A stretch of DNA of 64,000 bases from Betaproteobacteria bacterium TMED82 (GTDB lineage: Bacteria; Pseudomonadota; Gammaproteobacteria; Burkholderiales; Burkholderiaceae_A): assembly GCA_002170395.1 (NCBI GenBank), contig NHEJ01000007.1:279441-343440 (forward strand), written 5' to 3'. Position 1 is the stretch's first letter. The number at the start of each line of letters is the position of its first letter. Below, piece by piece: positions 8,118-28,324 of this stretch. Below the pieces are notes generated by a model, which was given only the letters and a program-made list of their open reading frames with translations, did no database searches and was not told the origin of the DNA. Both the position numbers and the translations under genes were made by a program.

Positions 8118-8822
8118 ATGAAAGTTATGGACATGTTTTCACATTGTTATCAAGCTAACCCCTTAAAAATTTTCGGATCGAAAAAAACCGTTTTTGCTAG
8201 AAGAGTTTACTGCATTGGTGCTAATTATCTCAAGCATGTCGAAGAAATGAAGCTCTCGGTAGAAGAGAGCCCTTGCTATTTCATGAAGCCCCCGGACACT
8301 GTTTTTTCGGTGAATCCGGAAAACGTTGCATCAATAGAGTATCCGTTAGCCACAGATTTATTACATCATGAGATAGAGTTAGTGGTTATTTTGGGTAAAG
8401 AAGGTGTACAAGTAAGTACCAAAGATGCTGAAAAAATGATTTATGGTTGTGCCGTTGGTCTAGATTTAACGAGGCGAGATTTACAAAAAAACTTACGAAG
8501 TAGAGGGAATCCTTGGGAGTTGGCAAAGGTTTTTGAACAAGCTGCGCCAATCGGTTTAATCCATAAATTTTCAGATATCAAAAACATTCGTAAAATGAAA
8601 TTATCTCTTTTCGTAAATGGACAACTGCGACAAAACTCCTCTACTCAAAATATGAGGTTTGATGTTGCTCAAATTATCTCAAATCTTTCAACGTTTTTTC
8701 ATCTGCGCCCAGGAGACATTCTCTTCACCGGCACTCCAGAGGGGGTCGGGAAGTTAGTCAAAGGTGATTCAGTGAGAGCTGAAATCGAGACTCTTTCTCC
8801 CTTAAACATCAGGATAACTTGA
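8118..8822 (+). CDS. Fumarylacetoacetate hydrolase family protein
   Basis: A 234-residue single-domain FAH-family enzyme. The YCIGANYLKHVEEM segment, the metal-ligand HHEIELVV (two glutamates), the GLDLTRRDLQ aspartate and the GDILFTGTPEGVG loop are all present. Members cleave or decarboxylate acylpyruvates and related 2-keto acids with Mg2+ or Mn2+. Candidate activities are acylpyruvase, oxaloacetate tautomerase/decarboxylase or 2-keto-pentenoate hydratase; the sequence alone does not decide. The start is ATG 8118 or the in-frame ATG 8127. An OFA-type carboxylate carrier follows 128 bases later on the same strand, which makes a link to organic-acid uptake possible. Confidence 0.82.
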   Translation: MKVMDMFSHCYQANPLKIFGSKKTVFARRVYCIGANYLKHVEEMKLSVEESPCYFMKPPDTVFSVNPENVASIEYPLATDLLHHEIELVVILGKEGVQVSTKDAEKMIYGCAVGLDLTRRDLQKNLRSRGNPWELAKVFEQAAPIGLIHKFSDIKNIRKMKLSLFVNGQLRQNSSTQNMRFDVAQIISNLSTFFHLRPGDILFTGTPEGVGKLVKGDSVRAEIETLSPLNIRIT

Positions 8823-14009: not shown

Positions 14010-14801
14010 TCTCCAACCTGAGCCGATAATTTTTAGACAGATAATACTTATCGCTATGCCTGCTGAAATTGATATAAAAAAGCTCAACCATGGAGAGATA
14101 TCTGATGTACCGAAAACACCATACCTAAATCCATCTATAAGATAAAAAAAAGGGTTAAACTTACTTAAAGTTTGCCAAAAGGGAGGTAGATTATTCGTTG
14201 AAAAGAATACTCCAGCTAGGAGAGTCAATGGATTGATCAAAAAATTCTGGAATCCAGCAACCTGATCCCACTTCTCTGCATATATTCCAGCGATCAGTCC
14301 TAGCCCGCCCATAATGATACAAGACAAAAAGCTAAAAACAATAATCCAGGCCAGGTGTTCAACATTAATTTGAACTATAAATGTGCAGAAAATCCAGAGC
14401 GTTAGACCACATGCAATTCCCCTGATGATAGCACCACCCAAATACCCAAAAAACCATTGTATGGGAGTCATTGGGGACAACATTAGAAATACTAAATTAC
14501 CAGTTATTTTACTTTGTGTGAAACTTGAACTGGTATTTGCGAAAGCATTTTGCTGGATGGTCATCATTACCAAGCCAGGGACCAAGAAAGCTGAATAACT
14601 TATACCTGGAAAGGGTTCAAGGCGATTATTTAGTAAGTAAGAAAAAATAATCAAGAATAATAATGAGGAAATGACAGGGGCTAAAATGGTTTGTATCCAC
14701 ACTTTTCCAAACCTGGAAATTTCTTTTTTTAAGAGAGCCATTACGGCCCAATTATTAGAATGTATTTCGACATTTCTGTTTAGTATTTTATTTTGTTTCA
14801 T
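13998..14801 (-). CDS. ABC-2 type transporter permease (YadH-like), no adjacent ATPase
   Basis: A 267-residue membrane protein with about six helices and the ABC-2 pattern: a charged N-terminal segment ALLKKEISRF, then VPGLVMMTIQQNAFANTSSS, and a C-terminal FNPFFYLIDGFRYG before the last helix. The closest known type is YadH-like. Such permeases are usually encoded beside their ATPase (YadG), but here the upstream gene is pyrF and no soluble ABC ATPase is near, so the partner must be elsewhere. The start is uncertain: ATG 14801 has no ribosome-binding site, and the Met of MALLKKE is an alternative. Confidence 0.78.
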   Translation of the reverse strand: MKQNKILNRNVEIHSNNWAVMALLKKEISRFGKVWIQTILAPVISSLLFLIIFSYLLNNRLEPFPGISYSAFLVPGLVMMTIQQNAFANTSSSFTQSKITGNLVFLMLSPMTPIQWFFGYLGGAIIRGIACGLTLWIFCTFIVQINVEHLAWIIVFSFLSCIIMGGLGLIAGIYAEKWDQVAGFQNFLINPLTLLAGVFFSTNNLPPFWQTLSKFNPFFYLIDGFRYGVFGTSDISPWLSFFISISAGIAISIICLKIIGSGWRLKT

Positions 14802-23236: not shown

Positions 23237-24259
23237 ATGATGAGTATAAAGGTAGCAATAAATGGTTATGGAAGAATAGGAAGGGCTGTTCTGCGGGCAT
23301 TGTTTGAGGGCGAAAAAGTTAAACAAAATCAGATTGAAATAGTTGCTATTAATGATTTAGGAAGTTTGGAAACCAACGTTCTTTTAACGGAGTTCGATAG
23401 TGTACACGGCAGATTTTCGAAAGACGTAGCAGCAGACTTAGGTAGTATGAGTGTTGATGGAAGAGAAATATTAATTTTTTCTGAACGAAACCCCGAAGAT
23501 TTACCCTGGAAAAAGTTGGGTATTGATGTTGTGATGGAGTGTACTGGTCTGTTCACGTCTTCGAAATACGCTTCCAAACATCTATCAGCAGGAGCAAAAA
23601 AAGTGTTAATATCCGCTCCCGGTAAGGATGTTGATGCGACAATTGTTTATGGAGTTAACCACTTTTTGTTGAATGAGAATCACAAGATAGTGTCTAACGC
23701 CTCTTGTACAACAAATTGTTTAGCACCAGTTGCAAAAATTTTGCATGATCAGTTCGTGCTCACGGAAGGTTTGATGACAACTGTTCATTCTTACACTAAC
23801 GACCAATTGCTTGTTGACAGTTTTCATAATGATCCTCGAAGAGCTAGGTCAGCAACTCAATCAATGATACCTACGAAAACTGGGGCTGCTGCTGCTGTAG
23901 GATTGGTGTTACCTGAGTTGGCTGGTAAGCTGGACGGTTTTGCTATAAGGGTTCCTACAGCTAATGTTTCAGTAATTGACTTCACGGTAAGTATAAAAAA
24001 ACCAACGACCGCTGATACTATTAATGAAATTTTTAAAGAGGCCTCAATTTCGAAGTCACTCGAGAATATTCTAGGAATTAATGAGAGACCACTGGTATCT
24101 ATAGATTTTAATCATGATTCGAGATCAAGCATTTTTGATCTTACGCAAACAAGAGTCTCAGAGTCTGGTGCTTTAGTAAAAGTTTTATCCTGGTATGACA
24201 ATGAATGGGGGTTTTCAAATAGAATGATAGATACTTCAATCTTGTTGGGTGGGTTATAA
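23237..24259 (+). CDS. gapA: Glyceraldehyde-3-phosphate dehydrogenase
   Basis: A 340-residue Gapdh. The N-terminal [13 protein letters not shown] dinucleotide fold, AINDLG (Asp preferring NAD), the catalytic [10 protein letters not shown] cysteine, TVHSYTNDQ and the C-terminal [12 protein letters not shown] are all present. It starts 5 bases after tkt with GGAAAG as ribosome-binding site; two consecutive ATG codons (23237, 23240) are possible starts. It works next to Pgk encoded downstream. Confidence 0.97.
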
Positions 24260-24283: not shown

Positions 24284-25467
24284 ATGGCTGTTTACGCGAA
24301 TAGGATTAAAAAGTTATCTGAAGTAGAGATGACAAACAAGAAAGTTTTCATTAGATCAGATTTGAATGTTCCGTTAAATGAGAACGGAGTAGTTTTAGAT
24401 ACTACTAGAATCGAGTCCTCACTAAAAACTATACGTTATGTCCTTCAACAAAGAGCTGCAGTGTTTCTAACGTCACACTTAGGTCGTCCAATAGAAGGTA
24501 AATATGATGAAAACTTTTCCTTGAGTCCGGTGGTTAGTGTTATGGAAAGGTTATTAAAAAAAAAATTCCGTTAATAAAAAATTGGTTAGAAAAAAAAATT
24601 GATATTTCTCCAGGAGAAATAGTTGTGTTGGAAAATTGTAGGTTCAATATTGGTGAAAAAAGTAATTCTATCGATCTGGCAGAAAAAATCTCAAATATTT
24701 TTGATGTTTACGTTAATGATGCGTTTGCAACAGCCCACCGAAAAGAGGTAACGGTAAACAAACTCCCTAGTTTAAAAGACTGTAAATGCGCTGGTTTTCT
24801 TTTCATGGAAGAAATCAATGCTTTACAGAAAATATTGGCTAATCCGAGTAGGCCTTTGGTGGCAATAGTTGGAGGCTCAAAAATTTCGGGCAAGTTAGAA
24901 TTGTTATTTTCATTACTAGAGAAAGTAGATACTTTAATTGTTGGAGGGGGGATTGCTAACACCTTATTAAGGGCAAAAGGGTTTGAGGTAGGAAATTCTT
25001 TGCATGAGAAAAACCTGATTCTTCCAGCACAAGAAATTCACAAGAAAGCTTTTGAAAAGGGGGTGAATCTTCCATTGCCACGCGATGTGGTTACAGCGAT
25101 ATCGCCTGAAATTGTTGACTCCGCGCGGACATCTCTCATCGAAAATGTACAAAGTGATCACATGATACTAGACTTTGGCCCTAAAACTTTAGAAAATTTT
25201 GAGCATATTTTAAAAGGTGCTGGAACAATTTTATGGAATGGCCCAGTTGGTCTTTTTGAAGTTGATGAATTCTCTAGTGGAACTCGAAAATTAGCTGAAG
25301 TTATTGGGCAAAGTGGCGCTTATTCTATAGTCGGTGGAGGTGATACCGTTTCTGCAATAAATAAATTCCACGTTATAAATAACATCAGTTATATCTCCAC
25401 CGGTGGCGGGGCATTTTTAGAGTTTTTACGTAATTCCGAATTGCCGGCTGTGAGAGCTTTATTTTGA
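24284..25467 (+). CDS. pgk: Phosphoglycerate kinase, reading frame broken in a poly-A run
   Basis: Together the two frames cover a full Pgk of about 394 residues. The first part (24284-24574) has RSDLNVPLNENG and SHLGRP; it then reads a stop after ERLLKKKFR. The second frame has LENCRFN, VNDAFATAHR, IVGGSKISGKL, ILWNGPVG and the GGGDTVSAI nucleotide loop. The switch lies at the A10 run 24556-24565; a -1 shift gives KKKIPLIKNWLEKK, in line with the family. The cause is either an assembly/read error, a real mutation, or slippage that restores the frame. All catalytic parts are otherwise intact, which argues against decay. AAAGGAAAAG precedes the ATG. Confidence 0.9.
24556..24565 (+). other. A10 homopolymer at the pgk frame switch
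   Basis: Ten A between TTATT and TTCCG. Reading straight through gives a stop at 24572-24574. One extra A in the RNA, or a -1 ribosomal slip on AAAAAAA, restores the conserved protein. A second run of nine A lies 24 bases downstream but is in the correct frame. Confidence 0.85.
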
Positions 25468-25481
25468 GATAAAATAACCGA

Positions 25482-26945
25482 ATGAAGGGATTAATTAGAG
25501 CTACAAAAATTGTTGCTACTCTTGGACCAGCAACAAATTCGCCGCAAACAATTGAACAAGTTTTGGCTGCAGGTGTGGATATTGTGCGAATGAACTTTTC
25601 GCACGGGTCTGCAGATGAGCATGTGAGGAGAGCATCATGGGTTCACGAGGCAGCGCATAGGCTCGGAAGAGATGTTGGAATCTTAGTTGATTTACAGGGG
25701 CCAAAAATAAGAGTTGGAATATTTGAAAATGGAGAAGTTGAATTAAAAATAGGTCAGAAATTTGTTTTAGATATTAATTGTAAGATGGGTGACAGGTCAC
25801 GAGTCGGTCTTGATTATCGTGAATTGGTAAATGATGTTCAGGCTGATGATATTTTACTTTTAAATGATGGGCATATTTCTCTGAAAGTGACAAGCGTAAA
25901 CAATACTGAGGTAAGTTGCATTGTCTTGCATGGGGGAGTTTTATCCGACAAAAAAGGAATAAATAGGCAAGGCGGAGGTTTATCAGCACCGGCGCTAACT
26001 AACAAAGATATTGGAGATATTAAGGTTGCTGCCTCAATGGAGGCAGATTACGTTGCTGTCTCATTTCCGAAGTCTGCAGAGGATATAAATTATGCAAAAG
26101 AGCTCCTAAAAAAAGCCGGAAGTCGGGCTTGGGTTATAGCAAAAATTGAGAGGGTAGAGGCAATACGTAATCTCCAGGAGATTCTTGAGGCCTCTAACGG
26201 TTTAATGGTCGCCAGAGGAGATCTCGCAACCGAAGTGGGGGAAGCGGCGGTGCCAGCCCTTCAAAAAAAAATGATTCGTATGTCCAGAGATAAAAATAGA
26301 TTAGCAATAACAGCAACACAAATGATGGAGTCAATGATCAAGTCTCCGGTTCCAACTCGAGCAGAGGTTTCAGATGTTGCGAACGCTGTTCTGGACGGGA
26401 CTGATGCGGTGATGCTCTCCGCAGAGACGGCGACTGGAAAATATCCCAATAGGACTGTCGAGAAAATGTCTGGGATATGCCTGGAAGCAGAAAAGTTTGT
26501 AGAGGGCACTTTAGATAGTCATTTTTTGGATCGAACTTTCGAGAGGGTGGATCAATCAATTGCCATGGCCTCGTTATTTGTAGCACTGCATTTAAAGATT
26601 AAGGCTATAGCCTCTTTTACCCAGTCGGGTTCGACTGCCCTTTGGATTTCAAGGTTAAATTCTGGGGTACCGATATATGCTTTAACTCCAGAGGAGTCAA
26701 GTCGGAGAAGAATGGCCTTATATAGAGATGTTCAACCAATTTTTTTTCAATATGATCTTAAGGATAGGGAAGCATTAATAAAAATCGCAGAACAAAAGCT
26801 AGTGGATGCAAATGTAGTTTCTGCTGGCGATTTGATTGTTATTACAATAGGTGAACCCATTGGACAGTCAGGAGGTACAAATACAATGAAGATTGTAAAA
26901 GTATCTGCTTTGCCTGCTGACAAGTCAAAGCAGCTCAGCCTGTAG
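25482..26945 (+). CDS. pyk: Pyruvate kinase
   Basis: A 487-residue enzyme making pyruvate and ATP from phosphoenolpyruvate and ADP. Conserved parts are TKIVATLGPATNS, VRMNFSHG, LVDLQGPKIRVG, the substrate/metal site IAKIERVEAIRNL and MVARGDLATEVG, and the TATQMMESM loop. The C-terminal domain starts near residue 350 and ends with the TNTMKI segment. It starts 14 bases after pgk. In related betaproteobacteria fructose-bisphosphate aldolase usually sits between pyk and purC; here purC/E follows after 5 bases. Confidence 0.97.
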   Translation: MKGLIRATKIVATLGPATNSPQTIEQVLAAGVDIVRMNFSHGSADEHVRRASWVHEAAHRLGRDVGILVDLQGPKIRVGIFENGEVELKIGQKFVLDINCKMGDRSRVGLDYRELVNDVQADDILLLNDGHISLKVTSVNNTEVSCIVLHGGVLSDKKGINRQGGGLSAPALTNKDIGDIKVAASMEADYVAVSFPKSAEDINYAKELLKKAGSRAWVIAKIERVEAIRNLQEILEASNGLMVARGDLATEVGEAAVPALQKKMIRMSRDKNRLAITATQMMESMIKSPVPTRAEVSDVANAVLDGTDAVMLSAETATGKYPNRTVEKMSGICLEAEKFVEGTLDSHFLDRTFERVDQSIAMASLFVALHLKIKAIASFTQSGSTALWISRLNSGVPIYALTPEESSRRRMALYRDVQPIFFQYDLKDREALIKIAEQKLVDANVVSAGDLIVITIGEPIGQSGGTNTMKIVKVSALPADKSKQLSL

Positions 26946-26950
26946 AAGAA

Positions 26951-28324
26951 ATGGCATTAATAGAGACCAACTTAGAGAACTTCCTTCTGATGAAGCGAGG
27001 AAAGATTCGGGATGTCTACAAGTTGAATGATAGTAGGGTGTTGATAATTACCACAGATAGAGTATCAGCATTCGATGAGGTTATGAGTAATCCAATCGCA
27101 GATAAAGGAAAAATTCTAAACTCTCTAACGTTATTCTGGATGCAATTATTTGAGGGTATTGTTGACAATCATCTGACTGGTCAATCTATTTCCGAGTTTT
27201 TGAATAAAGATGAAGCTGATTTTTTTGAGGACAGGGCGGTGGTTGCTGAACTACTAGAACCCTTAGCCCTTGAATCTGTAGTTCGAGGGTTTTTGGAGGG
27301 TTCAGCTTGGGAAGATTATGAGAAGTCCGGGTTTGTTTGTGGTTTTAAGCTGCCGGTTGGTTTAAGAAAGGGAGCTAAGCTCCCAGAGCCAATTTTTACT
27401 CCCGCATTAAAAGTCAATGAAAGGGGTGGACATGATAGAAATCTATCTTATCAAGAGTGTTGTGAGATATTTGGAGCCGAAAAAACAGAGATAGTTAAGA
27501 CAAAAAGTATTGAGTTATTTAACAAAGCAGCGCTTTTTTTAAAGGAGAAAAATATAAGTTTATTGGATACTAAATTTGAATTCGCGTTCAAGAATGAGAG
27601 GATAGTTTTAATCGACGAAGTTTTGACACCAGACTCTTCAAGGTTTCGTCTGGAACCCGAAGCTGGAAGAAGTATTGACCCAAATTACCTCGATAAGCAA
27701 ATAATAAGAGATTATTTGGTTGAGCAGAAGAATATCAACGACAGTGAAAAAGTTGAGGACCTTCCGCTATCAATTAAGTTGAAGGCTTCCTCTGCGTATA
27801 GGTACTTTGCTGATAAAGTTTTAGATCTACAGTCTCCTAGTGTTGGAGTCGTTATGGGCTCTGATTCGGATTGGAGTGTTATGAAATTTGCCTCTGAGAC
27901 GCTAAATCAATTTTCAATTATTCATGAAACAAAAGTCATTTCAGCACATCGAACACCTGACCTACTTTTCGAATATGCAGAGGATGCTCTTGAGCGTGGG
28001 CTAAAAATTATCATTGCTGGTGCGGGTGGGGCAGCGCATCTTCCGGGTATGATTGCATCAAAATCAATAATATTAGTATTCGGTGTTCCTATTCCTTCAA
28101 CCTACTTGAATGGCGAAGATTCTCTTTACTCTATTGTACAGATGCCAAAGGGCGTTCCAGTAGCCACGTTTGCTATTGGAAAACCTGGAGCAGTAAATGC
28201 GGCTCTTAAAGCAGTGGCAGTTTTAGCTAGAGATAATTTAGAACTTATGGATAAGTTGTTAGAGTTTAGATTAGGGGAAAAGAAAAGGGTTGCTGAGATG
28301 AACAAAAGGTTGGGAAAGACTTGA
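26951..28324 (+). CDS. purCE: Fused SAICAR synthetase (PurC) and N5-CAIR mutase (PurE)
   Basis: A 457-residue bifunctional protein. Residues 1 to about 285 are PurC: KRGKIRDVYKL, TDRVSAFDEV, GGHDRNLSYQ, LIDEVLTPDSSRF. From residue 296 it is a complete class I PurE: VGVVMGSDSDW, ISAHRTP, AGAGGAAHLPGM, QMPKGVPVATFAIG. The linker is only about ten residues and the frame is continuous. The enzymes catalyse consecutive purine steps (N5-CAIR to CAIR to SAICAR), so fusion could channel CAIR. Animals have a similar PurC/AIR carboxylase fusion but with the class II PurE. purK overlaps the end by 4 bases, completing the three-step set. Confidence 0.93.
   Translation: MALIETNLENFLLMKRGKIRDVYKLNDSRVLIITTDRVSAFDEVMSNPIADKGKILNSLTLFWMQLFEGIVDNHLTGQSISEFLNKDEADFFEDRAVVAELLEPLALESVVRGFLEGSAWEDYEKSGFVCGFKLPVGLRKGAKLPEPIFTPALKVNERGGHDRNLSYQECCEIFGAEKTEIVKTKSIELFNKAALFLKEKNISLLDTKFEFAFKNERIVLIDEVLTPDSSRFRLEPEAGRSIDPNYLDKQIIRDYLVEQKNINDSEKVEDLPLSIKLKASSAYRYFADKVLDLQSPSVGVVMGSDSDWSVMKFASETLNQFSIIHETKVISAHRTPDLLFEYAEDALERGLKIIIAGAGGAAHLPGMIASKSIILVFGVPIPSTYLNGEDSLYSIVQMPKGVPVATFAIGKPGAVNAALKAVAVLARDNLELMDKLLEFRLGEKKRVAEMNKRLGKT

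Follow-up and report, generated by a model that had tools for sequence, protein, structure and literature searches.

The frame of an otherwise undecayed pgk breaks at A10, probably through a one-base indel in the assembled sequence

The window, by which we mean the whole stretch of 64,000 nucleotides that was analysed, contains the glycolytic gene pgk in two reading frames, flanked by two open genes that run in the same direction. The features at the locus are as follows.

23237..24259, plus strand: intact open frame upstream of pgk, which we take to encode glyceraldehyde-3-phosphate dehydrogenase (gapA-like)
24284..24574, plus strand: N-terminal part of pgk in frame 0 (PF00162 positions 2-82, E 1.9e-24)
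24538..24571, plus strand: the only stretch able to hold a joining shift, as read off the sequence
24556..24565, plus strand: A10 run, the place of the frame break
24565..25467, plus strand: C-terminal part of pgk in the -1 frame (PF00162 positions 100-377, E 7.5e-98)
24590..24598, plus strand: second run, A9, inside the C-terminal part, where the frame is unbroken
25482..26945, plus strand: intact open frame downstream of pgk, presumably encoding pyruvate kinase

The N-terminal part begins at an ATG (24284), passes through A10 in frame 0 and ends at a TAA (24572-24574) after 96 aa, and the remainder follows in the -1 frame, free of stops between a TAG (24535-24537) and the TGA that ends at 25467, in agreement with a preliminary description of the gene as split at A10. 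Since these two stops bound the frames, the shift must fall in 24538-24571. The PF00162 profile (379 positions) was matched over the whole length of pgk, divided between the two frames, and the -1 frame supplies the whole C-terminal part of PGK. With one A added at the junction, the protein aligned to those of the congeners without a gap and matched their length, which confirmed the earlier statement that a single added A restores the family sequence. Among the A/T runs of the genome sample described below, the one that holds the break ranks with the 25 longest, indicating that the break is not placed at random. Slippage at the A9 (24590-24598) was ruled out as a means of repair because the frame-0 stop comes first. 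A separate internal start for the C-terminal part was also rejected; the first ATG, GTG or TTG in its frame, the GTG at 24625, already lies within the PF00162 match.

The genome to which the window belongs (G000) comprises 1,579,864 bases in 7 contigs and has a completeness of 85.57%. A search of this genome for a second intact PGK revealed none besides the two pieces of pgk, which upheld the view that pgk is present once; because of the completeness value, another copy in the missing sequence is possible. A scan for promoters and terminators around pgk gave nothing notable, with one promoter-like site (3.9 expected) and one terminator-like site (0.9 expected). The early stop in pgk leaves untranslated sequence behind it, which could lower pyruvate kinase further down. 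Loss of mismatch repair was considered as an explanation and found unsupported: genes for MutS and MutL are both present in G000 with open frames, so that a general loss of this function is unlikely to be the cause. Elsewhere in the window, positions 26951-28324 form a single ORF of 457 aa, which we take to be a fusion of SAICAR synthetase (PurC) with PurE.

A match to PGK was found in 58 of the 61 genomes searched, the window's own genome included. The genus is represented by 7 further genomes, of which 6 carried an intact PGK and 1 had no match. These congeners are distant, the six with a match showing 46-54% identity to the C-terminal part of pgk, and no allele of the same species was present among the seven; the named genome collection held no closer PGK either (13 PGK loci, best identity 46%). 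At the position of the pgk junction, none of the 6 intact congeners had an A-run of at least 7 and none had a frame break. Three of them had A5, and G007 had a T7 starting one base away. The comparison of A-counts in relatives, suggested in the preliminary description as a check, thus revealed that the run is not conserved.

The window's pgk was entered as its read-through protein into an alignment of 39 PGK sequences (38 from relatives), from which three loci repeating others were left out. It differed at 3 of 88 near-invariant columns; the corresponding counts were 5 of 90 for L036, an intact congener, and 10 of 87 for the outlier L003. The branch length of the window's protein was 0.61, compared with 0.68 for L036. 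Since neither the columns nor the branch length revealed any other decay, pgk appears to have been under selection until recently, or to be so still. The earlier claim that all catalytic motifs are kept on both sides of the break agrees with the near-invariant columns, which are the sole basis on which it was assessed.

Long A/T runs were surveyed in a G000 sample of 463,440 bases (29% of the genome; loci L057-L076 and the window; GC 0.378). The sample held 105 A/T runs of at least 9 (80 of 9, 23 of 10 and 2 of 11; none longer), 85 of which lay in coding-like frames, 15 bases or more from the ends, and left them unbroken (69 of 9, 14 of 10 and 2 of 11). The remaining 20 were the A10 and A9 of pgk and 18 runs near gene ends or between genes. 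By Pfam, four of the A10/T10 runs that lie outside coding-like ORFs resembled gene borders; the families on their two sides were sugar nucleotidyl transferase and dTDP-sugar epimerase, S16 and RimM, L31 and no family, and no family and FliS, respectively. Hence pgk was the only gene seen broken at a run of 9-11 in the sample. Because the 85 runs in coding-like frames stay unbroken, systematic undercalling is unlikely and any error must be sporadic; on the same count, the idea of a generally bad G000 assembly was unsupported.

A coding-potential scan of the sample returned 41 junctions of two frames at runs of at least 6. Besides pgk and one A9 (138804 of C7), these involved runs of 6 to 8, and many had two long arms, as tandem genes would. 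Homology provided a test independent of the scan. When ORFs of G009, a genome of the same family, were compared with the sample by tblastn, 167 queries matched and a single frame split was found, that of pgk; the HSPs amounted to 123 kb with 17 runs of 9 or 10 and so represent part of the sample only. Queries from two congeners recovered pgk as well, with 2 splits among 85 matched queries from G006 and 5 splits among 159 from G003. The five other splits (one from G006, four from G003) were rejected: nine of their ten pieces lie antisense to open frames of 91-558 aa, and the tenth lies on a tRNA-Thr gene. As a separate observation, N occurs 49 times, alone or in pairs, at 44 unevenly spread sites in L059, L061, L062 and C7 5258-43954 of G000, and nowhere in the window. 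These letters may mark ambiguity in the consensus, a reading compatible with a consensus of mixed strains.

The congeners G006 and G003 each contained a gene in two frames that meet at a homopolymer.

L136, about 8522-8533, minus strand: frame break in a G006 desaturase gene at a G7 run
L140, about 14226-14234, minus strand: G003 gene in two frames meeting at A6 (Fer2; FAD/NAD domains)

In 240 kb of G006, a fatty-acid desaturase gene was split at the run of seven G, with desaturase matches on both sides; queries from G009 gave 121 matches and 1 split, its own queries 96 and none, and those from G003 107 and 1 putative split. In 160 kb of G003, its own queries gave 154 matches and 1 split, those from G009 61 and none, and those from G006 100 and 2 putative splits. 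The G003 protein at A6 is encoded by one ORF in G000. Because an ATG overlaps the G003 junction, this case is ambiguous and was left out of the clean breaks; it may be a real two-gene arrangement. No split was detected in 800 kb of G009 among 144 of its own queries with a match. The G7 break in G006 indicates that such assemblies do contain isolated homopolymer breaks. A single case, and at G rather than A/T, it is consistent with sporadic errors in the sequence or with recent indels.

The abundance of runs was compared with a baseline of synonymous-codon shuffles within each gene (303 ORFs of at least 200 aa); this side observation covers L057-L076 and the window of G000, and also L128-L147. 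In the G000 ORFs, A/T runs were in excess at length 8 (195 seen, 122.4 expected) and length 9 (60 and 43.5), stood at 14 for an expected 16.8 at length 10, and fell to 2 for an expected 9.6 (sd 2.0) at 11 or more. Runs of A in the sense strand were not avoided at A9 (39 seen, 29.0 expected) or A10 (9 and 11.4), whereas only 1 of at least 11 was seen for an expected 7.3 (sd 2.2), a value as low as which was reached in 0 of 100 shuffles. G006 and G003 also had an excess at 8, and the ORFs analysed from these two genomes held no coding runs of 11 or more. In G009, by contrast, the deficit began at length 8 (16 seen, 27.9 expected) and continued above it (0 and 8.3). In this genus the threshold length for purging seems to have shifted. 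Outside ORFs, runs of at least 11 numbered 0 in 44,807 bases of G000 (with 6 of length 10) and 3 in 14,743 bases of G006, raising the possibility that assembly or mutation caps run length in G000.

In PMC1088944, avoidance of runs is taken as a sign of harmful slippage, and species with many unavoided 9A/9T runs are set aside as unlikely to slip there. Applied to our counts, this reasoning argues against strong slippage at A10 in this genome, whereas a tract of 11 would be of the purged kind. Replication slippage could yield the same pattern of run lengths. The Blochmannia vafer genome is about 0.7 Mb in size. The coding runs of at least 9 in the G000 sample (85 in 463 kb) have a density near that in B. 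vafer, for which 153 poly-A tracts of at least 9 are reported in coding regions (PMC3017870).

Tamas 2008 and Wernegreen 2010 are the primary papers on poly-A frameshifts rescued by slippage in Buchnera and Blochmannia. According to other reports, 12-50% of transcripts are corrected by poly-A slippage in insect endosymbionts (PMC5009743), slippage reaches about 20% at an A11 in tssM1 of Citrobacter rodentium (PMC4256274), E. coli RNA polymerase makes 0.39% insertions at an A7 (PMC6260861), and eight genes of B. vafer with frameshifts in tracts are treated as possibly functional through slippage correction (PMC3017870). The Buchnera and Blochmannia cases resemble pgk in that an otherwise undecayed gene is broken once, by one base, within a long A-run and would be restored by one added A, but some of them have RNA evidence or conservation between species. 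G000 also differs from those genomes in its size of about 1.6 Mb, its GC content (38% in the sample) and its open MutS and MutL. A frame change involving pgk is also reported for the pgk-tpi fusion of Thermotoga maritima, which is said to be made by a frameshift between pgk and the next gene to give a longer fusion product; the break in the window, however, lies inside pgk. We found no case of pgk with transcriptional slippage among the literature titles, although one may exist elsewhere. In tssM1, as in pgk, the excerpt places a poly-A run shortly 5' of a stop, and one extra base opens the full-length frame; unlike pgk, tssM1 needs both products and its slippage was measured, whereas the short product of pgk (96 aa) is without most of the enzyme. 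The break likewise resembles the false one-base deletions beside A/T runs that fragment genes in assemblies, but those in the excerpt of PMC12007338 come mainly from long-read assemblies, and G000 may not be one.

If A10 is real, RNA polymerase could add one A in a share of the transcripts and so give full-length Pgk, a reading that we regard as unlikely. It agrees with the position of the break in A10 and the length restored by one A, with the state of pgk as an undecayed and only copy found between open genes of the same pathway, and with the documented rescue of frames by poly-A slippage (PMC5009743, PMC4256274). However, the run is absent from all six intact congeners, G000 leaves A9 and A10 unavoided in the manner of bacteria deemed unlikely to slip (PMC1088944, excerpt), and no frame restored by slippage was reported from the transcriptomes of E. 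coli and Buchnera (PMC5574713). A much used enzyme would, moreover, be made from a share of its messages only. The proposal of a working slippage site thus gained nothing specific, as there is no conserved run and no structure beyond chance, and runs of 9-10 A/T are common and intact in the genes of this genome. That pgk is maintained in dependence on slippage, which would set the level of Pgk in a 1.6-Mb genome with open MutS and MutL and in a lineage tolerating A/T runs of 8-10, is very unlikely. The ribosome could instead shift by -1 on a real A10. The frame-0 codons TTA AAA AAA AAA hold the heptamer A_AAA_AAA, which we take to be a slippery heptamer of the type X_XXY_YYZ (dnaX-type), and a few bases upstream lies GGAAAGG (24544-24550), a candidate Shine-Dalgarno-like stimulator, which may be there by chance. 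The RNA at and downstream of A10 folds no better than chance, however (24566-24665: z 0.40, 132 of 200 shuffles folding as well or better; 24500-24660: z 0.61, 147 of 200), and such frameshifting appears extremely improbable. The sequenced strain might also have less Pgk, or none, because of a real and recent frameshift, a transient null or a leaky variant at an unstable tract. Such a frameshift would be in keeping with the proneness of long runs to replication indels (PMC3017870) and with a gene that has yet to decay. It would nevertheless affect a central gene of which no other copy was found, in a genome with open MutS and MutL, and a null would be expected to vanish quickly; we consider it distinctly unlikely.

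The break is probably a one-base undercall, or a minor indel variant of an unstable A11, in the assembled sequence. This reading is favoured because the break is alone and at an error-prone site, pgk is otherwise undecayed and its neighbours are open, six of seven congeners have an intact PGK, pgk is the sole gene that tblastn found split in the sample, G006 has a homopolymer break of its own, and coding sequence holds few sense A-runs of at least 11. Against it we counted the 85 unbroken runs, the absence of splits in G009 and the unsplit state of G006 under its own queries. Under an indel in the assembled sequence, pgk would be an ordinary, functional gene from whose A-tract the assembly lacks one base. 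An A11 would match the family, and in genes of this genus tracts of that length are rare and presumably liable to indels; the deposited A10 would be a consensus undercall or an indel variant taken from the reads. Most living cells would then carry an open pgk frame. We infer a length above A10 for the true tract, or for the one carried by the majority. The preliminary description was right to name a homopolymer error in the assembly as the main alternative to slippage.

The observation of a break in pgk stands, and its simplest account is a one-base indel in the assembled sequence of a tract of unusual length, introduced by error or taken from a minor variant; functional transcriptional slippage at A10 is a possible one. 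An essential gene that is broken at a homopolymer in an assembly calls for a check of the reads before its pathway is called lost. If the break were real, polymerase error would be what sustains a central glycolytic enzyme, and this in a bacterium that differs from the insect endosymbionts whose genes are rescued by slippage.
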